Positions 2,835 to 40,511 of a stretch of DNA of 64,000 nt are shown here, in pieces. The DNA lies in NCBI GenBank assembly GCA_026417375.1, contig JAOADJ010000025.1, forward strand, positions 62,001-126,000. Reading direction: 5' to 3'. A model generated the notes under the pieces. That model was not told where the DNA came from. It searched no databases and worked only from the letters and a program-made list of their open reading frames with translations. The first letter of the stretch is position 1. The number at the start of each line of letters is the position of its first letter. The DNA comes from Melioribacteraceae bacterium (GTDB lineage Bacteria > Bacteroidota > Ignavibacteria > Ignavibacteriales > Melioribacteraceae). A program made the translations under genes and the position numbers.

Positions 2835-3683
2835 TTACTTTGTATTATGAAGGTAGTCAATCACAAGCGATAATTTTTCCTTCATTTGTTTACGAGTAAC
2901 AATGAAATCGATAAACCCATTTTCGAGTAAAAACTCTGAACGTTGAAATCCTTCAGGTAAATCTTTTCCAATTGTCTGTTTAATAACTCTAGGTCCAGCA
3001 AAACCAATTAAAGCTTTAGGTTCAGCTATTATAATATCGCCAAGCATTGCATAGCTTGCAGTTACACCACCTGTAGTTGGATCAGTCAAAATTGAGATGA
3101 AAGGAATTTTAGCTTCAGCTAAACGTGCAAGCCGAGCGCTTGTTTTAGCTAATTGCATTAATGAATAAGCACCTTCCATCATTCTTGCACCACCGCTTTG
3201 ACGTATAATTATCATTGGAATTTTTTCTTCTAAAGCTACATCAATTGCTCGTGATATTTTTTCTCCTACAACGCTACCCATACTTCCACCAATGAAACCA
3301 AAATCCATACATGCAAATGATACTTTTTTATTATTTATTTTACCTGTTCCGGTTCTTACTGCATCATATAAACCAGTTTTTTTAATAGTGGATGTAATTC
3401 TTTCTGTGTACTTTTTTGTATCTACAAATTCCAAAGGATCTGCAGATTTCATTTTTTTGTCCATTTCTTTGAATGAACCCTCATCAAAAAGAAAAGAAAT
3501 ATATTCTTTACTGCCAATTCTAAAATGAAAATTACACTTTGGACAACACCAAAGGTTTAATTCTAATTGTTTGTTGTAGATTATTTCACCACAATCTTCA
3601 CACTTTTGCCATAAACCATCCGGCAAATCACTTTTTTTACTTTCTTTAGATATATTTTCTTTTTTTCTTGTAAACCAGCCCAT
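2835..3683 (-). CDS. accD: Acetyl-CoA carboxylase carboxyltransferase subunit beta
   Basis: This subunit forms the carboxyltransferase with AccA and moves the carboxyl group from biotin to acetyl-CoA, giving malonyl-CoA for fatty-acid synthesis. The 282-residue length is typical. The N-terminal zinc ribbon is complete, with C28-x2-C31 and C47-x2-C50. The crotonase-like core carries [16 protein letters not shown] and [19 protein letters not shown], the acyl-CoA binding and oxyanion loops, and [17 protein letters not shown]. The ATG overlaps the last base of the upstream DUF1573 stop (TAATG), so the two are translationally coupled. accA is not in the window. Confidence 0.96.
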
Positions 3684-30111: not shown

Positions 30112-30717
30112 TTATTTTGAATGACGTGATTTTAACTCTTCAACAATATCTTCTAACAAAATATCTTTCTGATTAAGCATTACAAATAAATGATAAATCA
30201 GATCCGATACTTCCATAATTATTTCTTTTTTGTTATTGTTTTTTGCGGCTATTATTGTTTCGATTGCTTCTTCACCAACCTTTTGAATTATTCTGTTTTC
30301 ACCACTTTTGAATAATTCAGTTGTGTATGAATTTTTTGGTAATTCGTTTTTTCTATTTTTAATTAATTCATACAAATCTTCAAGAAATTTTAACGACTTG
30401 TTTTCAACATTGAAGCATGAATAATTTCCTGTATGGCAAGTTGGTCCGTTTGGTTTTGCAAATATTAATAGTGAATCATTATCGCAATCAACTTTAATAT
30501 CAATAAGATTCAGGAAATTTCCACTTGTTTCCCCTTTTGTCCATAAATTATTTTTAGTTCTACTAAAGAAGGTAACTAATTTTGTTTGTAAAGTTTTTTC
30601 TATTGATACTTTATTCATGAAACCTAACATTAAAACTTTTTCAGTTGAAGAATCAACAATAATAGCTGGAATTAATCCATTAAATTTTTCAAAATTTAAT
30701 TTATCAATTTGAATCAT
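30112..30717 (-). CDS. hisIE: Bifunctional phosphoribosyl-AMP cyclohydrolase / phosphoribosyl-ATP pyrophosphatase
   Basis: Catalyses steps 2 and 3 of histidine synthesis. The 201 residues are a fusion. The HisI part (1 to about 110) has IPAIIVDSSTEKVLMLGFMN, FSRTKNNLWTKGETSGN, the metal-binding VDCDNDSLL and GPTCHTGNYSCF. The HisE part (about 115-201) has KVGEEAIETIIAAKNNNKKE and EVSDLIYHLFVML with the Glu/Asp side chains of the all-alpha pyrophosphatase fold. It is the last gene of the operon and overlaps hisF by four bases. Confidence 0.96.
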   Translation of the reverse strand: MIQIDKLNFEKFNGLIPAIIVDSSTEKVLMLGFMNKVSIEKTLQTKLVTFFSRTKNNLWTKGETSGNFLNLIDIKVDCDNDSLLIFAKPNGPTCHTGNYSCFNVENKSLKFLEDLYELIKNRKNELPKNSYTTELFKSGENRIIQKVGEEAIETIIAAKNNNKKEIIMEVSDLIYHLFVMLNQKDILLEDIVEELKSRHSK

Positions 30718-31469
30718 AAACGAACCTCAATTCCATTTTCATGTAAGTATTTTTTTAAATCAATAATTTTTATTTCATCATAATGAAATATTCCAGCAGC
30801 AAGACATGCATCAACTTTTGCAATTTGAAATGCATTTAAGAAATGGTTCATATTTCCTGCACCACCACTTGCTATAACAGGAATTGAAACTTTTGACTGA
30901 ACAATTTTAAGAAAATCAACATCAAAACCATTTCTGGTTCCATCATTATCCATTGAAGTTAAAAGAATTTCACCGGCGCCAAGTTGTTCAACTTGTTGAC
31001 ACCAGGTTAAACCATCAATATCTGTTTCTAATTTTCCACCATTAACAAAAACTTTTTTTTGATTATTAACTTTTTTTAAATCAATAGCTGCTACTATTGC
31101 TTGATTACCAAATTGTTTCGATGCTTCTTTAATCAGTTGTGGATTTTTTACTATAGCAGAATTTAGTGATACTTTATCAGCACCAGCTTTTAATAATTGT
31201 TCAATATCATTTATTGTAGAAATTCCACCACCTACGGTAAACGGAATTCTAATTACTTTTGCAACTTCTTCAACAAGATGCACTAAAGTTTTTCTTTTTT
31301 CTTCAGTTGCGGTTATATCAAGAAAAACTAATTCATCAGCAAATTCTTTATAATATCTAAAGGATAATTCAACAGCATCGCCGGCATCTTTCAGATTTAT
31401 AAAATTTATTCCTTTGACAACTTTGCCATTTTTAACATCAAGACATGGTATAATTCTTTTAGCTAACAA
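30714..31469 (-). CDS. hisF: Imidazole glycerol phosphate synthase cyclase subunit HisF
   Basis: A (beta/alpha)8 barrel that, with HisH, forms imidazole glycerol phosphate and AICAR from PRFAR and ammonia. It starts [20 protein letters not shown] (catalytic Asp of CLDV), with [40 protein letters not shown] (second catalytic Asp) and [12 protein letters not shown] as phosphate loops. Two TTG codons are possible, 31478 and 31469. The second leaves ten bases after AAAGGAG and gives the usual family N terminus (251 residues), so I choose it. It overlaps the hisA end by eleven bases. Confidence 0.95.
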
Positions 31470-32178
31470 TTTTTGCAAGCTCCTTTAAATTAATTTTGTT
31501 TTCATAAATTGCTTTTCCAATTACAGTTGCGTATAAATTTAATTCATTTAGTTTCATTACATCATCTAAATTTGAGATTCCACCTGAAGCAATAAATTTT
31601 GAAGTTGGAAAATTTTTAATTAATTCTTTGTAAAGATTAAAATTAGGACCGCTTAAAGTTCCATCTTTATCAACATCAGTTGAAAGGAAATAACTAATAC
31701 CTAACGATAAACAATAATTTATATGTTCAAATAATTCAACTTTACTTTCTTCTAACCAACCTTTGATTAATATTTTTTTATTTTTTGAATCAGTTGCCAC
31801 AATTATTTTTTCACAACCAACTTTGTTGATAATTTTTTCAAATTCATTTTTATTATTAACAGAAATAGAACCGATAATAATTTTATCAACTCCTAAATCA
31901 ATTAATTCATTTACAATTTCAAAATTTCTAATGCCACCACCAAACTGAATTTTTAACCCAGTATAATTTTTTATTTCTTTAATAAAATTTATGGTTGAAA
32001 TAACTCCAGTGGTTGAAGCTTCTAAATCGACAATGTGAATAGTATTAAAATTATTTTCATAAAAAGAAATTGCATATTCTATTGGGGTAAATTCATAAAA
32101 TTTAACTTCATCAAATTTACCTTTGAATAAACGAGCAACTTTATTTTTGTATATATCTATTGCAGGTATTACTAACAT
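31459..32178 (-). CDS. hisA: Phosphoribosylformimino-AICAR ribotide isomerase HisA
   Basis: Isomerises ProFAR to PRFAR (Amadori rearrangement). A 239-residue (beta/alpha)8 barrel. [19 protein letters not shown] holds the first catalytic Asp, and [18 protein letters not shown] the first phosphate loop. [10 protein letters not shown] holds the second Asp, and [18 protein letters not shown] the second phosphate loop. [20 protein letters not shown] is also typical. There is no trp-type PriA fusion signal. It overlaps both hisH (seven bases) and hisF. Confidence 0.95.
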
Positions 32179-32759
32179 TTTTCAATAAAATTTTTTAAAA
32201 GTTTTATTCCTGCTTCACCAGATTTTTCCGGATGAAATTGAACACCATAAAAATTATTTTTTTGAATAGCAGCAGAAAATTCATTGCCATAAACTGAAGT
32301 TGCAATAGTAAATTCATTAATCGGCATATAATAAGAATTAGCATAGTAGAAAAATGATTCGTCATTAATTTCATCAAACAAAATATTCTTTTTTATAATT
32401 TTTACTTTGTTCCATCCCATTTGTGGAACTTTATTTTTTTCATCTTCAAATTTTTTACAAACTGTTGGAATGACTGATAAGCAATTTGTATTTCCTTCTT
32501 CAGTTTTATCGGAAAGTAATTGCATTCCAAGACAAATGCCTAATAATGGTTTTTTTGTAATTCTCAGTAATGTGAAAAGATTTGTTAAATGCAATTTTCT
32601 AATTGCAAAAGATGCTTCACCTACACCAGGGAAAATAATTTTTTCCGATTTATTAATATCAGTTTCACGTGAAGTTACAATGAATTCTACTTTCAACTCT
32701 TCTAAAACATTTGTAACTGATTTTGTATTACCAGCACCATAATCAATAATTGCTATCAT
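32172..32759 (-). CDS. hisH: Imidazole glycerol phosphate synthase glutaminase subunit HisH
   Basis: Class I glutamine amidotransferase that supplies ammonia to HisF. In 195 residues it has IIDYGAGNTKSV at the N terminus, FPGVGEASFAIRKL (oxyanion strand), LGICLGMQLLSDKTEEG with the nucleophilic Cys, and YGVQFHPEKSGEAGIKLLKN with the catalytic His-Glu pair. All triad residues are present. It starts at an ATG that overlaps the hisB stop by four bases (ATGA-type) and runs into hisA by seven bases. Confidence 0.95.
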   Translation of the reverse strand: MIAIIDYGAGNTKSVTNVLEELKVEFIVTSRETDINKSEKIIFPGVGEASFAIRKLHLTNLFTLLRITKKPLLGICLGMQLLSDKTEEGNTNCLSVIPTVCKKFEDEKNKVPQMGWNKVKIIKKNILFDEINDESFFYYANSYYMPINEFTIATSVYGNEFSAAIQKNNFYGVQFHPEKSGEAGIKLLKNFIEKC

Positions 32760-33343
32760 ATAATTCCTTTTGTTGATGGTAAATTACCTTTATTTCTGGA
32801 ATCAAATTTTAACGCCATGTTTAATGATTTTGCAAAAGATTTAAAGAGAGCTTCAGCTTTATGATGATCATTTTCTCCTGAGCATTTTAAATGAATATTT
32901 GCCTTTAAACCGGATGACAATGCTCTGAAAAATTCATGAAATAATTCTGTCGGGAAATCACCAATTTTTTCTCTTTTGAATTTGCATTTAAAAGATAAAT
33001 AACTTCTTCCACCTAAATCTAATGCACAATATGATAAAGATTCATCCATTGGAAGTAAAAAACCAAAACGTTCAATTCCTTTTTTATCGCCAAGAGCAAA
33101 ATTAATTGCTTCCCCTAATGCTATACCAACATCTTCAACTGTATGATGTTCATCAACGTGTAAATCTCCTTTTGCAATAAGTTCAAGATCAATATTTGAA
33201 TGTTTAACAATTTGTTCAAGCATATGATCAAAAAATCCAATTTTAGTTTTTATTTTGGATTTACCTGAACCATCAAGATTAATTTTAATTTTTATATCTG
33301 TTTCATTTGTTTTTCTTTTATGTATAGCAATTCTTTTTTTCAT
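32756..33343 (-). CDS. hisB: Imidazoleglycerol-phosphate dehydratase HisB
   Basis: A monofunctional dehydratase of 195 residues; the histidinol phosphatase domain of enteric HisB is not attached. Metal-binding motifs are FFDHMLEQIVKHSNIDL, HVDEHHTVEDVGIALGEA, and later HEFFRALSSG and ENDHHKAEALFKSFAKSL, as in the Mn-dependent family. The histidinol-phosphate phosphatase needed for the pathway is therefore elsewhere in the genome. The gene lies one base after hisC and overlaps hisH by four bases. Confidence 0.96.
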   Translation of the reverse strand: MKKRIAIHKRKTNETDIKIKINLDGSGKSKIKTKIGFFDHMLEQIVKHSNIDLELIAKGDLHVDEHHTVEDVGIALGEAINFALGDKKGIERFGFLLPMDESLSYCALDLGGRSYLSFKCKFKREKIGDFPTELFHEFFRALSSGLKANIHLKCSGENDHHKAEALFKSFAKSLNMALKFDSRNKGNLPSTKGII

Positions 33344-33344
33344 A

Positions 33345-34391
33345 TTAACCTTTAAAGTTTTTTAATTCATTAATGAATCTATCATTTTCATAAGTTGTAC
33401 CAATAGAAACTCTTAAATAACCGGAAAAATTATATTGATTACTCCTATCACGAATAATTATTCCTTTACTTTCCAGATAGGAAAAAACTTCTTTTGGTTT
33501 TTCAACTTTAAATGAAATAAAATTTGAATCACTTGGTAATATTTTTAATACAAACGGAATATTATTTAATTCATTTTCTATTCTTTTTCTTTCTTCAATT
33601 ATTTTGTTTACAAATAAGTTACGTTTTTCAAAATTATTTAATGCATTTAATATTACATCTGATGTTAATTTATTAATGTTATAAGGTAATTTTACTTTAA
33701 ATAACAGATTTGTTATTTCACTACTTGCAACAGAAAAACCAGCACGTACACCAGCAAGTCCCCATGCTTTTGAAAATGTTCTGGTAACAACAAGATTTGA
33801 TAATTCAACTGCATGTTTTATCAACCCTTCATCGTTAGCAAAATCAATATATGCTTCATCAACAACAACTATTACATTCAGTTTTGTCAATTCTATAATT
33901 TTTTCTTTTGAAAGTAAATTTCCTGTGGGATTATTTGGTGAACATAAAAATATAATTTTTGTTTTATTATTAATTGCATTTTTTATTTTTAACAAATCAA
34001 TATCATATTGTAAATCGAGCAGCACATTACAAACTCTGACATTATTTATATCGCAACAAACTTTATACATACCATATGTAGGTTCACAAATAATAACTTC
34101 ATCTTCACTTGGATTGCAAAATATTTTAATTAGTAAATCAATTATTTCATCAGAACCAACACCAAAAAATAAATTTTCTTTTGGGAGTGAAAGAAGCTGA
34201 GACAATTTTTCTCTTATTTTATTTTGATTTGGATCCGGATAACGATTTAACTCTAATCCATTCAATTCAACTACACTTCCTAAAGAATTTTCATTTGCAT
34301 CTAATAATATTCCATTTAGATGCGATTCCCTTGCAGAAGTATATGGCTTTAGTTTTAGAATATTTTCACGAACCAAATTATTTATATTCAT
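33345..34391 (-). CDS. hisC: Histidinol-phosphate aminotransferase HisC
   Basis: PLP enzyme of fold type I, 348 residues. It has GVGSDEIIDLLIKIFCNP, CSPNNPTGNLLSKEKII (Asn of the PLP site), VVVDEAYIDFAN (Asp pairing with the pyridine N), VVTRTFSKAWGLAGVRAGF with the Schiff-base Lys at about residue 205, and LRVSIGTTYENDRFI with the carboxylate-binding Arg. Its position between hisD and hisB fixes its specificity. It shares four bases with hisD upstream. Confidence 0.96.
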   Translation of the reverse strand: MNINNLVRENILKLKPYTSARESHLNGILLDANENSLGSVVELNGLELNRYPDPNQNKIREKLSQLLSLPKENLFFGVGSDEIIDLLIKIFCNPSEDEVIICEPTYGMYKVCCDINNVRVCNVLLDLQYDIDLLKIKNAINNKTKIIFLCSPNNPTGNLLSKEKIIELTKLNVIVVVDEAYIDFANDEGLIKHAVELSNLVVTRTFSKAWGLAGVRAGFSVASSEITNLLFKVKLPYNINKLTSDVILNALNNFEKRNLFVNKIIEERKRIENELNNIPFVLKILPSDSNFISFKVEKPKEVFSYLESKGIIIRDRSNQYNFSGYLRVSIGTTYENDRFINELKNFKG

Positions 34392-35668
34392 TTTAATCTC
34401 ACTTTTATTGCATTTGCATGTGCCTGTAAATTTTCAGCTTCTGCCATTTCAATTACAGTTGATGATAAATTTTTTAAACCTTTTTTTGTCAACTTTTGAA
34501 AAGTAATTGATTTCATAAAAGATAATACATCAACACCACCAATTGATTTAGCATATCCATAAGTTGGTAAAGAATGATTAGTGCCACTTGCATAATCACC
34601 AACACTTTCTGGTGAATAACTTCCTAAAAAGACAGAACCGGCATTTTTAATTTTTGTTTTAACCGAATTAATATTCTTAACATTAATAATTAAATGTTCA
34701 GGAGCATAATTATTTGAAAGTTTAACAGCATCATTTAAATCATCAACTATTAAAATGAAAGATTTTTTTAAGCATTTATTTGCAATTTCTTTCTTTGGAA
34801 GAGTTTTTAATTGTTTATTGATTTCTGCTAAAACATTTTTTGCTAAGTTTATATCATCTGTTAATAAAATAACCTGTGAATCAATTCCATGTTCAGCTTG
34901 TGAAAGTAAATCAGCTGCAACAAATGAAGGATTTGCAAATTTATCAGCAATTATTAAAACTTCACTAGGTCCAGCTGGCATATCAATAATGCTACCATCA
35001 TTATCTATGCTTATTAATTGTTTTGCTAAAGTTACAAACTGATTTCCGGGTCCGAATATTTTATCAACTTTTTTAACTTGTTCTGTTCCATAAGCAAGCA
35101 TTGAAATTGCATGAGCACCACCAACAGAATAAAACTCTTCAATACCAATTTTTTTTGCAACATATGCCAAAGCCGGATCAATTTCATTTTTGACTGGAGA
35201 ACAAACAACAATTCTTTTACAACCAGCAATCTTTGCCGGAATTCCTAACATTAATAATGTTGAAAACAAAACAGCACTTCCACCCGGAATGTATAATCCT
35301 ACACTTTCAATTGGTAAATATTTTTTTTCACAAACTATTCCTTTTTGTGTTTCAACATTAATTGTTTTTGGAATTTGTTTAATATGGAATTTGTAAATGT
35401 TATTATATGCTACATCAATTGCTCGCTCAAGTTTAATATCAATAATTTTTGATTGCTCATTTAAATATTTTTTTGTGATTAAAATTGAATCACTATTTAA
35501 TCCGTCAAACTTTTTAGCATATTTTAATACAGATTTATGACCATTTTTTTTCACATCATAAATAATTTTACTGACCTTTTCTTTAATTGAATTATTGTTT
35601 TGTGCAGGTCTTTTAAATAATTCAATTAATTTTTTTTGACTTAAAGAATTTTTAATAATTATTTTCAT
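34388..35668 (-). CDS. hisD: Histidinol dehydrogenase HisD
   Basis: Zn- and NAD-dependent enzyme of the last two steps, histidinol to histidine. The 426 residues are full length. It contains PIESVGLYIPGGSAVLFSTLLML, FYSVGGAHAISMLAYGTE, KIFGPGNQFVTLAKQL, DMPAGPSEVLIIADKFANP, LSQAEHGIDSQVILLTDD and the C-terminal YASGTNHSLPTYGYAKS. These motifs carry the Zn ligands (Gln/His/Asp/His) and catalytic Glu-His. It overlaps hisG by four bases. Confidence 0.97.
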   Translation of the reverse strand: MKIIIKNSLSQKKLIELFKRPAQNNNSIKEKVSKIIYDVKKNGHKSVLKYAKKFDGLNSDSILITKKYLNEQSKIIDIKLERAIDVAYNNIYKFHIKQIPKTINVETQKGIVCEKKYLPIESVGLYIPGGSAVLFSTLLMLGIPAKIAGCKRIVVCSPVKNEIDPALAYVAKKIGIEEFYSVGGAHAISMLAYGTEQVKKVDKIFGPGNQFVTLAKQLISIDNDGSIIDMPAGPSEVLIIADKFANPSFVAADLLSQAEHGIDSQVILLTDDINLAKNVLAEINKQLKTLPKKEIANKCLKKSFILIVDDLNDAVKLSNNYAPEHLIINVKNINSVKTKIKNAGSVFLGSYSPESVGDYASGTNHSLPTYGYAKSIGGVDVLSFMKSITFQKLTKKGLKNLSSTVIEMAEAENLQAHANAIKVRLK

Positions 35669-36534
35669 AGTATCATATTCTCAATTGGTAATAATAAAAT
35701 TCCGGAAGCACCTGCTTCCTTTAATTTTTTATAAATGTTCCAGAATTCATCAGAAGGGATAACTGCATGAACTGCAACCATAGTTTCATCCGCAAGTGGA
35801 ACTATAGTAGGACTTTTTAATGATGGAACAATTTTTTTAATAATCTCTAATGAATTTTTTGGTGCATTCATCATCAAATATTTTGATGTTTTTGCTTTCA
35901 GAGCTGATTCTATTCTGAAAAGAAAGTCTTTAAGAATATTATACTTTTCAGCATTTTCAATTAAATTTTTATTCATAATAAGTGCTGCCTGCGAATCAAA
36001 AACATCGAATGATTTTTTTAATTTATTTAGTTTAAGTGTGTTACCGGTAGAAACTAAATCACAAATTAAATCAGCAACTCCAAGCGAAGGGGCAATTTCA
36101 ACTGAACCACTAATTTCAATAATCTTTGCTTTGATATTATTTTTCAATAAAAAATCATTTAAAATATTCGGAAATGAAGTAGCAATTTTTTTCCCGTTTA
36201 ACTCATTAATATTTTCTAATGAATTATTTTCTGGTAGTGCTAAAGATAAACGGCATTTTCCAAAACCAAGTTTTTTCAGTATTTCAACATCAGCTTTTTT
36301 TTCAAAGATTATATCTTCTCCAACAATACCAATATCAGCAACCCCATCTTGAACATATTCTGGAATATCATCATCTCTTAAAAAAAGAATATCAAGTTCA
36401 TAATTTCTTGCAGAGATTATTAACCTTTCAGAATAGTCTTCAATCTCTAACCCACTATTCTTTAGTAACTGTAAAGATTTTTCCGTAAGTCTTCCTTTTT
36501 TTTGGATTGCAAGTTTTAAATTTCCATTTAGCAT
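35665..36534 (-). CDS. hisG: ATP phosphoribosyltransferase, long form HisG-L
   Basis: First and feedback-inhibited step of histidine synthesis, joining ATP and PRPP. At 289 residues it is the long, HisZ-independent form. It has NLKLAIQKKGRLTEKSLQLL, DIPEYVQDGVADIGIVGED, GSVEIAPSLGVADLICDLVSTGNTL (the PRPP loop) and a C-terminal ACT-like regulatory domain (about 215-289, with AVHAVIPSDEFWNIYKKLKEAGASGILLLPIE). The ATG at 36534 has AGGAG five bases upstream, just past the attenuator hairpin. It is the first structural gene of the operon. Confidence 0.97.
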   Translation of the reverse strand: MLNGNLKLAIQKKGRLTEKSLQLLKNSGLEIEDYSERLIISARNYELDILFLRDDDIPEYVQDGVADIGIVGEDIIFEKKADVEILKKLGFGKCRLSLALPENNSLENINELNGKKIATSFPNILNDFLLKNNIKAKIIEISGSVEIAPSLGVADLICDLVSTGNTLKLNKLKKSFDVFDSQAALIMNKNLIENAEKYNILKDFLFRIESALKAKTSKYLMMNAPKNSLEIIKKIVPSLKSPTIVPLADETMVAVHAVIPSDEFWNIYKKLKEAGASGILLLPIENMIL

Positions 36535-36549
36535 AAATTCTCCTATAAA

Positions 36550-36577
36550 ACAAAAAACCCCGACATTCGCCGGGGTT
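36550..36577 (-). terminator. Attenuator terminator of the his operon
   Basis: Read on the minus strand AACCCCG, an eight-base loop and CGGGGTT form a GC-rich stem followed by TTTTG, 16 bases before the hisG ATG. Its 5' arm (AACCCCGGCG) can instead pair with GGTT plus CGCCGG near the end of the leader reading frame (36608-36618), forming a competing antiterminator with a three-base bulge. Confidence 0.85.
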
Positions 36578-36602
36578 CAATGATAAAAATTAATAAATAT
36601 AT

Positions 36603-36674
36603 TTAAACCAAACCGGCGCCTCTTCGAGGAATTCTATGATGCCAATGATGATTTACGCCGATTATTAAATTCAT
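36603..36674 (-). CDS. hisL: Histidine operon leader peptide
   Basis: A 23-codon reading frame MNLIIGVNHHWHHRIPRRG plus AGLV, with the codons CAT CAT TGG CAT CAT in the middle: four His out of five residues. It lies between a good promoter and the terminator in front of hisG. By analogy with classical attenuation, stalling at the His codons when charged tRNA-His is scarce would let the antiterminator form and expose hisG to transcription. The peptide itself has no expected function. The start ATG has no clear Shine-Dalgarno. Confidence 0.85.
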   Translation of the reverse strand: MNLIIGVNHHWHHRIPRRGAGLV

Positions 36675-36696
36675 TTTAATTTCAAAAATTTTGTTG

Positions 36697-36728
36697 CAAA
36701 AGTAGTTAGTGAAATATTTAAATGCAAA
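36697..36728 (-). promoter_or_regulatory. Promoter of the his operon
   Basis: TTTG (36728-36725), a 20-base spacer and TACTTTTG (36704-36697) on the minus strand match the Bacteroidota -33/-7 consensus. Transcription should start near 36690, about 16 bases before the leader ATG. The box lies directly after the tRNA-Gln 3' end. Confidence 0.55.
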
Positions 36729-36739
36729 ATTTTTTTTGC

Positions 36740-36810
36740 TGCCCCATCAGGGGTCGAACCTGAAGTCTTCTGATCCAGAGTCAGACGTGTTGCCAATTAC
36801 ACCATGGGGC
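36740..36810 (-). tRNA. tRNA-Gln (anticodon CTG)
   Basis: The cloverleaf folds by eye. The acceptor is GCCCCAT/ATGGGGC with discriminator A. The anticodon arm is TCTGA-CTCTGGA-TCAGA with CTG at 34-36. The T arm is TCAGG-TTCGACC-CCTGA. CCA is not encoded (AGC follows). The gene begins only five bases after the stop of the large lipoprotein gene on the same strand, so it may be excised from a longer transcript. Confidence 0.93.
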
Positions 36811-36815
36811 ATTAT

Positions 36816-39800
36816 TTATTTTTTAATCACATTTTTTTCGTTTTTATTTTCTATTACCTTTCCACCAACTTTTTTAATGTTTAAATAAAATGGAATATCA
36901 TTTGTATCCCAAATTTTTCCATCAGATGAATCAACAATTTTAATTAATCCTTGTGAAGAAATTCTTGGTTCTGCCAAAGCTCCAAAAACAAAGTCCCAAC
37001 CAAATGCACCCGTTGATTGATAATTTGTTACTAACGTATTCCAGCTAACCCCATTATCTAAACTATAATAAATATTTACGTTACTTACTGCATAACTTGT
37101 CCATTCAATTAACATCGGCCAGTTTTCTGATACTTGTGGATTTGTTAAATCATCTGGCGGATAAAAATCTTCACCATTGTTTGGATATTTAACACGAATC
37201 TTTTTACTAGCATGAATTGAGAATGGTTTATCACTTACATCAGAAGGACCGCTTAAGCTAGAGATTCTAATCAAACAATTATCAGAACTATCAGGTCGAA
37301 CTGTTTCAGATCTTCCAGGCGCCCAAACAAATAATCCATCACTTTCTGTTGAATCTGCACCGGGTACAGTGTACCACTTTCCGCCACCATTTGTTGACCA
37401 CTCAATTTTTACTTTTGATACATGTGTTGATGTCCATTTAATTTCATAAGGATGATAGTTATTTATATCATTTGTTGGAACATTTGGTTTGCTGGCTAAC
37501 CATTGTTCATTTCCATTTGGGTAAATAACTGAAATTGTTGGTGGCGGTGTTACATAAAATGATCCACTCATTAATGAAGCACTTCCATCTGTTGCTGTTA
37601 TTCTTACAACATAAGTTGATGCATTTTGATCATATTTAAAACTGGTTGTATAAGAACCTGTATTATCAATACTATCAACTAAAGTGAACCAATCTGCCGG
37701 CACATTAATATTGTTTCTGTTGTATTCTATTTTAACTTTTTTAATTCCTTTTGATTCCCAGCGAATTACAACAGTTTCACCAGCTATAATTGAAGCTCCT
37801 GAATATGGATAAATAATTTTTGAAATTTCCGGAGTAACTAAAATTGAAAATGGTGAATTACTTTCGTCGTTTGGTTCTCCAGTTTCTGCATTGCTAATTC
37901 TTACTTTACACTGTGATGAATTAATATTCGCAGGAATTTGCCAATCGTAAGAACCTGTACTTGGTAAATCTTTAACAATTGAGCTCCAATTAATTCCATT
38001 ATTTATTGTGAAATCAATGTTCACTTTGTTAATTCCTTTGGAGTCCCAAGTTATTGTTTTTGTTTGTTTTTCTCTCCAAACTTCGCCACCATTGGGTGAA
38101 ATAATTCTTAACGTTTGTACAATTTGATTTGTGATTGTAAAGTTATTTGAAGAAATGGCATAAGGATTACCATCTGAAGCATCACTTATTTTAACTTTAC
38201 ATTGCAATGAATTTATACTTGGTATATTAACCCAGGTGTAATAACCAATACTTGGTGTTGATTGAATTATAGCGTTCCAGTTTGCACCGCCATCAGTTGT
38301 ATATTCAATTTTTACATTTGCAACATTTTCACTTGTCCAACGAATTTCTTTACTTGTACCTGATGACCAGACTTCTCCTCCGTTTGGAGTTATTATTTTA
38401 ATTGATGGTTCTGGTTGAATACTAAAGAAGGAATCACTTTCATCAGAAGGAGAATTATCTTTTGCATCACTAATTCTTACTTTACAATTTGTAGATGATA
38501 CTGCTGGTAATTGAGACCAAGTGTAAAAACCAGTGCTTGCTGTTGAATTTGTTATTGTATTCCAATTAATTCCATTATTAGTAGTGTATTCAATTTTAAC
38601 ATCAGAAATTCCAGCGGCATCCCAAGTAATAACTTGAGTAGAACCAGCAATCCATTCTTCTCCACCATTTGGTTTTGTTACTCTTATTAATTGTGTTCCT
38701 TGATTTACAATTGTGAAATTGTCATCACTAATATCTGAAGGTATTCCATCTAAAGCATCACTAATTCTTACTCTGCATTGTAACGAGCTTACATTTGGAA
38801 TAGGATTCCAATTATAAACACCATTACTTGGTGTGCTTGATGTTATTAAATTCCAAGTTGCACCATTATTTGTAGTGTATTCAATTTTGACATTTTCAAT
38901 GTTAGTTGATTTCCATTTAATGCTATTAGAAGATCCGGCAAACCATTCTTCATTTCCATTTGGTGAAAGAACTGTAATTTTAGGTTCTTCAGTTACAGAG
39001 AAAGTACCATCACTTTCATCTTGGGGAGAACCATTTTCTTTATCGATAATTCTGATTTTATATTGATTTGATGGTGCGGTAAAACTTGTTAGATATGTAC
39101 CACTTGATGGTGTTCTATCAACAATTGTAAACCAATTTGTTCCATTATTTGGTGAAAATTCAATAAGAACATTTTCAACACCGGTTGAATACCATTTAAT
39201 AGTATCAATTTTTCCGGCAACCCATGTTTCACCACCATTTGGTTTAATTATTTTCAATTCTGCTTTTGGTACAATTCTAAAATTACCATTACTTTGATCA
39301 GCAGGATCACCATCATTTGCATCACTTATTTTTATTAAACACTGAGTAGAAAATGTGTTTGGAACATTCCATTCATAAGCGCCGGTGTTTTGTAATTGAT
39401 CAATGATTGTATTCCAGGTTAAACCATTATTTGTTGTGAATTCTAATTTCACTTTAGATATACCAGAAGAACTCCAGGTAATTTGTTGATTTGTTCCTGC
39501 CTGCCATCTTTCTCCACCATTTGGAGATGTAATTTCTAAAGTTTGTGTTATTTGATTTGTAATTGTGAAAGTGCTATCAGAAACATCATTTGGTTCTCCA
39601 TCTTTTGCATCATAAACACGAACTTTACAAAGTTGTGAATTTATATTTGGAACATTATCCCAAATGTAAAATCCAGTTGATGGAGTAGATTCTTTAATAG
39701 TTATCCATGAAAAACCATTATTTGTAGTATATGCAAGTTTTACATTTTCAATATTTTCTGATATCCATTCAATTTTTCTATTTGTTCCTGAAAGAATTTT

Positions 39801-40511
39801 TTCGCCACCATTGGGTGAAATGACTTTTATTTTTGGTTCTGGCAGAATTGTAAAGATTGAACTTTCAGTTGACGGTACTCCTTCTTTTGCGTCCATTATT
39901 CTTACTTTGGCTAAAGTAGATGGTGTATTAGGAATTGGCTCCCAATAATAAATGCCTGTATTTTTTTTATCAACGGTAATTAGATTCCATCTGTTTCCAT
40001 TATTTGTAGTGTATTCAAGTTTAACTGAATCAATTCCAGAACTGAACCATTTAATTTCTTTAGCAGTGCCTGCTTCCCATTCATCTCTTTCTTTTGGTGA
40101 AATAATTTTTAAACTTTTGTTAGAATTACGAATTATTGCAAAAACATTATCACTTATATCAGAATATTTTCCATCAAGCGTAGCAACTAAAATTCGACAT
40201 TGATTTGAAATTACGTTTGGAATTGGGAACCAATTATAAACACCAGTATTTGCTAAGCTATCAACAATAAGACTCCATGATGTACCATTATCCGGACTAA
40301 ATTGAATTTTAACTTTTGATGTACCTGTGCCGCTCCACTTAATTTGAAATGATGATCCTTCTGAAATCGATTCGCCACCATTTGGTGATAAAACTTTTAT
40401 TGAAGTTATCTTTAAAGAATCGGCCGGATTAACAATGCTTTCATCATCTTTTAATTTGCACGATGATAAAAATGCAATCAAAATTAAAATTGAGAGAACT
40501 ATTTTTTTCAT
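36816..40511 (-). CDS. Large lipoprotein of twelve tandem Ig-like/Kre9-KNH-type repeats
   Basis: The 1231 residues have a lipoprotein signal (KIVLSILILIAFLSSC, lipobox LSSC). About twelve units of roughly 95-100 residues follow. Each opens with a version of I.SPNGGE.W.AG, then ITWSS.GI..VKIEYTTNNG..W..I, STG.Y.W..P, QCKVRISDA.DG.P.D.S...F.I. This pattern fits the Ser-Thr-rich/Kre9-KNH-like Ig domains common in FCB surface proteins. The last two or three units are most diverged, and the C terminus is a charged Lys/Asn tail. There is no T9SS sorting domain; anchoring would be by lipid. The ligand is unknown. It is separated from the plus-strand NHL gene by a divergent gap. Confidence 0.82.
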   Translation of the reverse strand: MKKIVLSILILIAFLSSCKLKDDESIVNPADSLKITSIKVLSPNGGESISEGSSFQIKWSGTGTSKVKIQFSPDNGTSWSLIVDSLANTGVYNWFPIPNVISNQCRILVATLDGKYSDISDNVFAIIRNSNKSLKIISPKERDEWEAGTAKEIKWFSSGIDSVKLEYTTNNGNRWNLITVDKKNTGIYYWEPIPNTPSTLAKVRIMDAKEGVPSTESSIFTILPEPKIKVISPNGGEKILSGTNRKIEWISENIENVKLAYTTNNGFSWITIKESTPSTGFYIWDNVPNINSQLCKVRVYDAKDGEPNDVSDSTFTITNQITQTLEITSPNGGERWQAGTNQQITWSSSGISKVKLEFTTNNGLTWNTIIDQLQNTGAYEWNVPNTFSTQCLIKISDANDGDPADQSNGNFRIVPKAELKIIKPNGGETWVAGKIDTIKWYSTGVENVLIEFSPNNGTNWFTIVDRTPSSGTYLTSFTAPSNQYKIRIIDKENGSPQDESDGTFSVTEEPKITVLSPNGNEEWFAGSSNSIKWKSTNIENVKIEYTTNNGATWNLITSSTPSNGVYNWNPIPNVSSLQCRVRISDALDGIPSDISDDNFTIVNQGTQLIRVTKPNGGEEWIAGSTQVITWDAAGISDVKIEYTTNNGINWNTITNSTASTGFYTWSQLPAVSSTNCKVRISDAKDNSPSDESDSFFSIQPEPSIKIITPNGGEVWSSGTSKEIRWTSENVANVKIEYTTDGGANWNAIIQSTPSIGYYTWVNIPSINSLQCKVKISDASDGNPYAISSNNFTITNQIVQTLRIISPNGGEVWREKQTKTITWDSKGINKVNIDFTINNGINWSSIVKDLPSTGSYDWQIPANINSSQCKVRISNAETGEPNDESNSPFSILVTPEISKIIYPYSGASIIAGETVVIRWESKGIKKVKIEYNRNNINVPADWFTLVDSIDNTGSYTTSFKYDQNASTYVVRITATDGSASLMSGSFYVTPPPTISVIYPNGNEQWLASKPNVPTNDINNYHPYEIKWTSTHVSKVKIEWSTNGGGKWYTVPGADSTESDGLFVWAPGRSETVRPDSSDNCLIRISSLSGPSDVSDKPFSIHASKKIRVKYPNNGEDFYPPDDLTNPQVSENWPMLIEWTSYAVSNVNIYYSLDNGVSWNTLVTNYQSTGAFGWDFVFGALAEPRISSQGLIKIVDSSDGKIWDTNDIPFYLNIKKVGGKVIENKNEKNVIKK

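Follow-up and report, generated by a model that had tools for sequence, protein, structure and literature searches.

A predicted ribosome-mediated attenuator of the histidine operon in a Melioribacteraceae bacterium and its conservation across Ignavibacteriales

The his operon and its surroundings

The window analysed here, a stretch of 64,000 nucleotides from a Melioribacteraceae bacterium (contig JAOADJ010000025.1), harbors a complete his operon on the minus strand (30112-36534) within a genome of 2.83 Mb and 58 contigs. Judged by HisG, the closest named relative is Stygiobacter electus, with 89% identity across the whole protein, which NCBI assigns to Melioribacteraceae, Ignavibacteriales, Ignavibacteriota. 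The operon consists of eight frames that overlap or almost abut one another. Its first gene, and the first under the proposed control, is hisG (35665..36534, minus strand; Pfam PF01634, PF08029), encoding the long form of ATP phosphoribosyltransferase with a HisG_C domain. Based on Pfam matches and frame layout, hisD, hisC, hisB (dehydratase), hisH, hisA, hisF, and hisIE make up the remaining operon (30112..35668, minus strand). The matches following hisG comprise histidinol dehydrogenase, an aminotransferase, imidazoleglycerol-phosphate dehydratase, a glutamine amidotransferase, two His_biosynth domains, and PRA-CH/PRA-PH; gene names follow from these families and from gene order, with hisC and hisH named by position.

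Directly upstream of the his leader lies a tRNA-Gln (CTG) gene (36738-36811), and next to it, at 36816-40511, a frame for a repetitive, secreted-looking protein of 1231 residues that matches the Pfam models Reelin subrepeat B, Kre9_KNH, and BNR. We considered tRNA-Gln as a component of the switch described below and rejected it, as the gene is absent at the 29 other hisG loci scanned.

Architecture of the leader

The region between tRNA-Gln and hisG includes a predicted leader RNA of about 140 nt and contains the parts of the proposed attenuator. At its upstream end, a promoter-like sequence of the Bacteroidota type, TTTG-N20-TACTTTTG (36697..36729, minus strand), precedes a leader peptide frame of 23 codons, MNLIIGVNHHWHHRIPRRGAGLV, which terminates with TAA (36603..36674, minus strand). 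The frame carries the putative regulatory codons CAT CAT TGG CAT CAT, encoding His-His-Trp-His-His (36636..36650, minus strand). Four arms, a small hairpin, and a T run make up the remaining parts. Arm 1, AATCGGCG (36656..36663, minus strand), pairs with arm 2 in the minimum free energy (MFE) fold of the full-length leader. Arm 2 (36606..36618, minus strand) constitutes the 5' strand of the antiterminator, reads CGCCGG-TTT-GGTT with TTT as the bulge, and overlaps the end of the leader frame from the end of codon 19 through codon 23. Just 5' of arm 2 sits a small hairpin, CCTC-GAA-GAGG (36619..36629, minus strand). Arm 3, AACCCCGGCG (36568..36577, minus strand), is common to antiterminator and terminator, and arm 4, TGTCGGGGTT (36556..36565, minus strand), forms the 3' strand of the terminator, which runs into the T run TTTTTTGTTTT (36547..36557, minus strand). 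Arms 2 to 4 are backed by folding and alignment, and arms 3 and 4 also by the terminator scan. The hisG ATG is located at 36534, with an AGGAG directly 5' of it that lies 3' of the T run and outside the terminator hairpin.

Folding of the individual states is consistent with two mutually exclusive structures. The terminator was picked up by the terminator scan with 10 pairs, and for its segment a folding energy of -17.7 kcal/mol (z -4.3) was obtained, which none of 200 shuffles reached. When the RNA ends at arm 3, RNAfold returns the antiterminator with its three-base bulge at -19.8 kcal/mol (z -2.6), a value that 5 of 200 shuffles match. The full-length leader has an MFE of -35.6, in a fold in which arm 1 pairs with arm 2 and the terminator is present; as a whole, this fold is just mildly better than its shuffles, of which 16 of 200 equal it (z -1.6). 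The initial annotation of this DNA had proposed a complete his attenuator with a Bacteroidota-type promoter, a 23-codon His-His-Trp-His-His frame, a terminator with T run, and a competing antiterminator with a three-base bulge. Every one of these parts was recovered at the locus and, as detailed below, is conserved across the order; arm 1 and the small hairpin go beyond that description.

Conservation of the leader across the order

A search for hisG in 164 genomes of the order returned a match in 102, and 97 upstream regions were examined, each read over 320 bases upstream of hisG or less at contig ends. Left out were partial hits (G014, G005, G071, and G107), a weak hit (G028), and, in G117, a weak second hit. 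The 62 genomes lacking a hisG match are uninformative with respect to the leader. Considering genomes of good quality only, the match is absent in 34 of 109; organisms without a match are possibly histidine auxotrophs or possess another type of HisG.

A leader frame with at least three His within seven codons precedes hisG at 96 of the 97 loci, the window's among them; the background is 2 cases among 97 reverse complements and 9 among 485 dinucleotide shuffles. With a stricter cluster of at least four His within seven codons, 79 loci are retained, while neither the 97 reverse complements nor the 485 shuffles contain a single case. The His-cluster leader before hisG is thus present beyond chance. 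Apart from the cluster, the leader peptides are highly diverse, although both helices are retained. At 60 of 94 loci, the 140 nt upstream of the His codons contain an exact TANNTTTG box, which is the case in 207 of 1880 single-base shuffles; this lends weight to reading the promoter-like sequence as a Bacteroidota-type promoter.

A terminator fulfilling our rule, which includes at least five T within the eight bases after the hairpin, is found between leader and hisG at 94 of the 97 loci. The three remaining loci comprise L082, which also lacks the leader, L036, where a GC-rich hairpin is followed by a T run that is too short, and L084, which has a weaker hairpin only. These numbers bear on the possibility that the hairpin merely terminates the upstream tRNA-Gln or a lipoprotein-like gene, the His-rich frame being a product of chance. 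The -7 box indeed follows the end of tRNA-Gln (36738) after about 34 nt, and the scan found no terminator belonging to tRNA-Gln itself. Furthermore, the AACCCCG...CGGGGTT form of the stem also serves as an ordinary gene-end terminator in the same genome, so the form alone proves nothing. However, tRNA-Gln is situated upstream at the window's locus only, among 30 hisG loci scanned, whereas leader and terminator recur at nearly every locus of the order, and we consider this explanation extremely improbable. A covariance model (R1) run on the window's own genome scored the his site at E 3.7e-9, with none of the next sites below 0.03 among 22 matches; the seven next R1 sites (L226-L232) are gene-end terminators at which no comparable leader is visible. 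Across 39 genomes, including this one, R1 found a match at E ≤ 0.1 in 31, many weaker ones lying elsewhere in the genome.

The same data address the level at which control would be exerted. Translational designs of attenuation are known in general, as the accessible text of PMC9413887 describes, and a hairpin that masks the ribosome-binding site of hisG could regulate without stopping transcription. Since the AGGAG of hisG lies outside the hairpin, transcriptional control is favored; together with the T-rich tract of at least five T in eight bases behind the hairpin at all 94 loci accepted by the rule, this makes translational attenuation very unlikely. We also weighed whether a T-box specific for His, or else a metabolite riboswitch, acts on the same terminator. 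T-boxes govern his genes in Firmicutes, according to the accessible part of PMC9413887, yet within the window Rfam gathering scores are reached by tRNA genes only, and a permissive scan of the leader returned no T-box or metabolite riboswitch family. Given in addition that the leader RNA spans just some 140 nt and that its conserved element is the frame of His codons, the probability of such a sensor appears almost negligible.

We next turn to pairing between the arms. At the 94 loci, arm 3 pairs with the locus's own arm 2 at a mean of -11.4 kcal/mol, compared to -9.5 kcal/mol with the arm 2 of other loci and -6.4 kcal/mol with shuffled sequences; the own pairing beats the shuffled mean at 92 of 94 loci and the swapped mean at 78 of 94. 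Alignment A1, consisting of 43 of the 94 loci picked because their arms can be aligned in one register, provides a view of individual columns. In this selection, the terminator has 91.0% of cells paired and 11 cells with both sides changed, and the antiterminator 94.6% and 19, respectively. For both helices, paired cells, double-change cells, and covariation score lie above all 500 column shuffles and above every slid version. Paired changes are exemplified by terminator columns 85/102, where C-G becomes U-A in four rows, and by antiterminator columns 37/91, which are occupied by U-A (15), C-G (12), A-U (3), and U-G (3). Counted as pairs that contain double changes, the terminator has three (29 of 500 shuffles as high), and the antiterminator has two, which is not above shuffles (216 of 500 as high). 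Of the comparisons named in the initial annotation, conservation of the leader frame in relatives came out in its favor, and the two helices persist with some paired substitutions.

Pairing of arm 1 with arm 2 behaves differently, as the own pairing is better than the shuffled mean at 52 of 94 loci and better than the swapped mean at 49. As an order-wide feature, the arm 1-arm 2 helix was consequently rejected, its conservation across the 94 loci not exceeding chance. Because this pairing is strong in the window and unconserved above chance, the behavior of the untranslated leader may differ among species.

Ribosome positions and proposed mechanism

The positions that a translating ribosome would occupy were modelled at the 94 loci. 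For the stalled state, the ribosome was placed on the second His codon with an assumed 11 nt covered downstream of the A-site codon, and the RNA was folded through arm 3. Under these settings, at least five antiterminator pairs form at 79 loci and fewer than five at 15. With footprint lengths assumed in the same manner, a ribosome at the stop codon would cover the arm-2 partners at 77 of those 79 loci, while one on the last His codon would still leave arm 2 free at 76 of 79. When the ribosome is placed at the stop codon, the finished state, folding yields the terminator at 93 of 94 loci. The most telling pattern is that the putative sensor codons, the arm, and the stop codon hold their spacing while the letters change.

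Taken together, the leader displays the hallmarks of a his-type attenuator: a frame with clustered codons, a terminator, an exclusive and conserved antiterminator, and the corresponding geometry. We conclude that it is very probably a ribosome-mediated transcription attenuator of the classical kind, which controls the his operon by sensing His-tRNA. From the parts, their conservation, the paired changes, and the geometry, all established by sequence and comparison, we infer stalling, early termination, and a response to histidine as follows. Transcription would start about 15-20 nt ahead of the leader frame, as the promoter-like sequence suggests, and a ribosome would follow on the leader. When His-tRNA is short, the ribosome would stall at the four CAT codons and leave arm 2 free to pair with arm 3; no terminator could then form, and the polymerase would continue into hisG-hisIE. 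When His-tRNA is ample, the ribosome would reach the stop codon and mask arm 2, so that arms 3 and 4 form the terminator and transcription stops in the T run, at approximately 36550. In the absence of a ribosome, the window's arm 1 could sequester arm 2, making the terminator the predicted default at this locus.

A small hairpin next to arm 2

The hairpin adjoining arm 2 was assessed at the 74 of 94 loci that carry the arm-2 motif. Within the window's family (f1), a hairpin of four to six pairs abuts arm 2 at 28 of 41 loci versus 4.0 expected from shuffles, and outside it at 7 of 33 loci versus 3.3 expected; in these counts, the abutment condition was set after inspecting the sequences, and loop length was left free. 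The stems vary in sequence, including CCTC/GAGG, CTTC/GAAG, CTAC/GTAG, and TTCCTT/AAGGAA. A fixed-register test on A1 did not support the small hairpin, with 52.9% of cells paired and some slid versions equal, perhaps owing to varying loop length. We regard the putative hairpin in f1 as a lead; its role may lie in stacking on the antiterminator or in acting as a pause hairpin.

The tryptophan codon within the His cluster

The initial annotation had called the Trp codon within the His run odd, and odd it is. The pattern HHxHH is found in 25 of the 94 leaders, and its middle position is taken by nine different residues (N 5, A 5, S 3, I 3, W 2, T 2, L 2, R 2, F 1), and HHWHH is confined to the window and its nearest relative. 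On this comparison, the middle Trp has no conserved role. In and beside His clusters, Trp is nevertheless enriched, filling 11 of 291 non-His positions as against 10 of 1404 in the rest of the leaders (p 0.0002, uncorrected for relatedness), which would accord with a his operon that, in addition to histidine, senses Trp starvation through this codon. As HHWHH is restricted to two of 94 leaders and the position varies freely, such an additional function is improbable. Tyr is likewise enriched in and beside the clusters (35 of 291 versus 50 of 1404). Tyr codons are one base away from His codons; the Trp codon is not.

Occurrence in other families and leaders of trp genes

Outside the order, 40 hisG loci were hand-picked from the listed matches in the phylum, sometimes several per family. 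Clusters of at least three His precede hisG at 29 of these 40 loci and clusters of at least four at 26, compared to 1 and 0 of 40 reverse complements and 23 and 0 of 400 shuffles, respectively. Clusters of at least four His in seven codons were present in 13 of the 19 other families of the phylum that were sampled. A HisG tree with 33 rows places two groups from the window's order, G002/G007 and G029/G030/G031, among other families (support 100/98 and 100/99), at a distance from nine further rows of the order, which cluster with the window (98/95). The attenuators of these two groups (L093-L097, L171-L175) match the type found in those families, with AACCCGTCTGAGTAAAT...-like terminators. In the simplest reading, with HisG alone on the tree, hisG and its attenuator seem to have passed jointly from one lineage to another.

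A comparable arrangement is found ahead of trpE in the window's own genome (contig C53, minus strand, approximately 2955-3095), where a Trp-rich leader, MKKFNLTYRSNSLNQNWWWCNLYILTR (WWW), is followed by a terminator. A tRNA-Asn gene and a hairpin immediately precede this trp leader. A trpE search matched 112 of 113 genomes, many just to TrpE relatives, and the best 30 loci of the order were read; all 30 contain at least three Trp in six codons, and 28 have a terminator by rule. The lineage seems to use attenuation for at least two operons. For ilv, leu, and thr, no attenuator was seen in the scanned stretches of the own genome, which missed some operon starts.

In light of these leaders, we cautiously lean towards the view that attenuation mediated by the ribosome is of old standing and in general use in the Bacteroidota-Ignavibacteria lineage. 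On this view, hisG is preceded by His leaders and trpE by Trp leaders throughout the order, His leaders reappear in many further families of the phylum, the his attenuator moves along with its hisG, and a single family has gained a small hairpin, possibly one stacked on the antiterminator. Classical attenuation needs a ribosome that keeps pace with RNA polymerase, so widespread His and Trp leaders would imply tight coupling of transcription and translation at the starts of these operons. To our knowledge, such coupling has hardly been tested in the phylum, and the roughly one hundred natural variants offer material for doing so.

Comparison with known attenuators

The initial annotation was right to place classical attenuation in a lineage distant from Proteobacteria, but the novelty that it implied is weakened by earlier work on Firmicutes (PMC2965389, PMC9413887) and by clues from Flavobacterium (PMC9723704), as far as the accessible parts of these papers go. 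In 2010, leader-peptide systems had, to the knowledge of the authors of PMC2965389, been shown just in Proteobacteria and Actinobacteria, and the available text of that study adds Firmicutes. His attenuators were later predicted in the Bacillus cereus group, Peptostreptococcaceae, and Erysipelotrichales (accessible part of PMC9413887, 2022). These resemble the window's leader in combining a His-codon leader, an antiterminator, and a terminator; they belong to another phylum and, in the text available, to few species, whereas the window's type is almost universal among the loci examined in its order.

In Flavobacterium psychrophilum, clues of leader-peptide attenuation before amino-acid operons were reported in 2021, and a structured element upstream of hisG was noted that also occurs in other genera of Flavobacteriaceae (PMC9723704, accessible part). 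It shares with the window the gene, a transcribed 5' region, and a neighboring lineage; it differs in family and class, and the available text describes it for hisG without leader peptide or arms. A treatment of the his genes of the superphylum mentions attenuation, in its accessible portions, solely in the general introduction (PMC8305728). The literature searched, from which subscription papers were mostly missing, yielded no description of a his attenuator in Ignavibacteria. Vitreschak et al. reportedly included attenuators in some Bacteroidetes/Chlorobi cases in 2004 (FEMS Microbiol Lett). The Bacteroid-trp RNA is linked to trp genes and attenuation. This RNA (RF01692) is a candidate cis-regulatory element of Bacteroidetes in the accessible part of PMC2864571, and the Rfam scan gave no match to it in the window.

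Among the nearest known counterparts is hisL of Escherichia coli and Salmonella (RF00514, His_leader), with which the window shares a His-codon peptide, an exclusive antiterminator and terminator before hisG, and an arm covered by the ribosome. The enteric leader peptide contains seven His in a row, and the enteric leader has a larger number of conserved alternative helices than that of the window. In contrast, the window has four CAT codons around Trp, a promoter-like sequence of the Bacteroidota type, and a family-specific small hairpin, and its leader scores 20.3 bits against RF00514, whose gathering score is 49. In its logic it corresponds to enteric hisL, yet by sequence it falls outside the Rfam His_leader family, and since no Rfam family is reached, standard annotation pipelines would miss the leader. 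The enteric-type mechanism as such is known, and its presence in a distant order is the news; added to it are near-universality within an order, arms with paired changes, and apparent transfer together with the operon.
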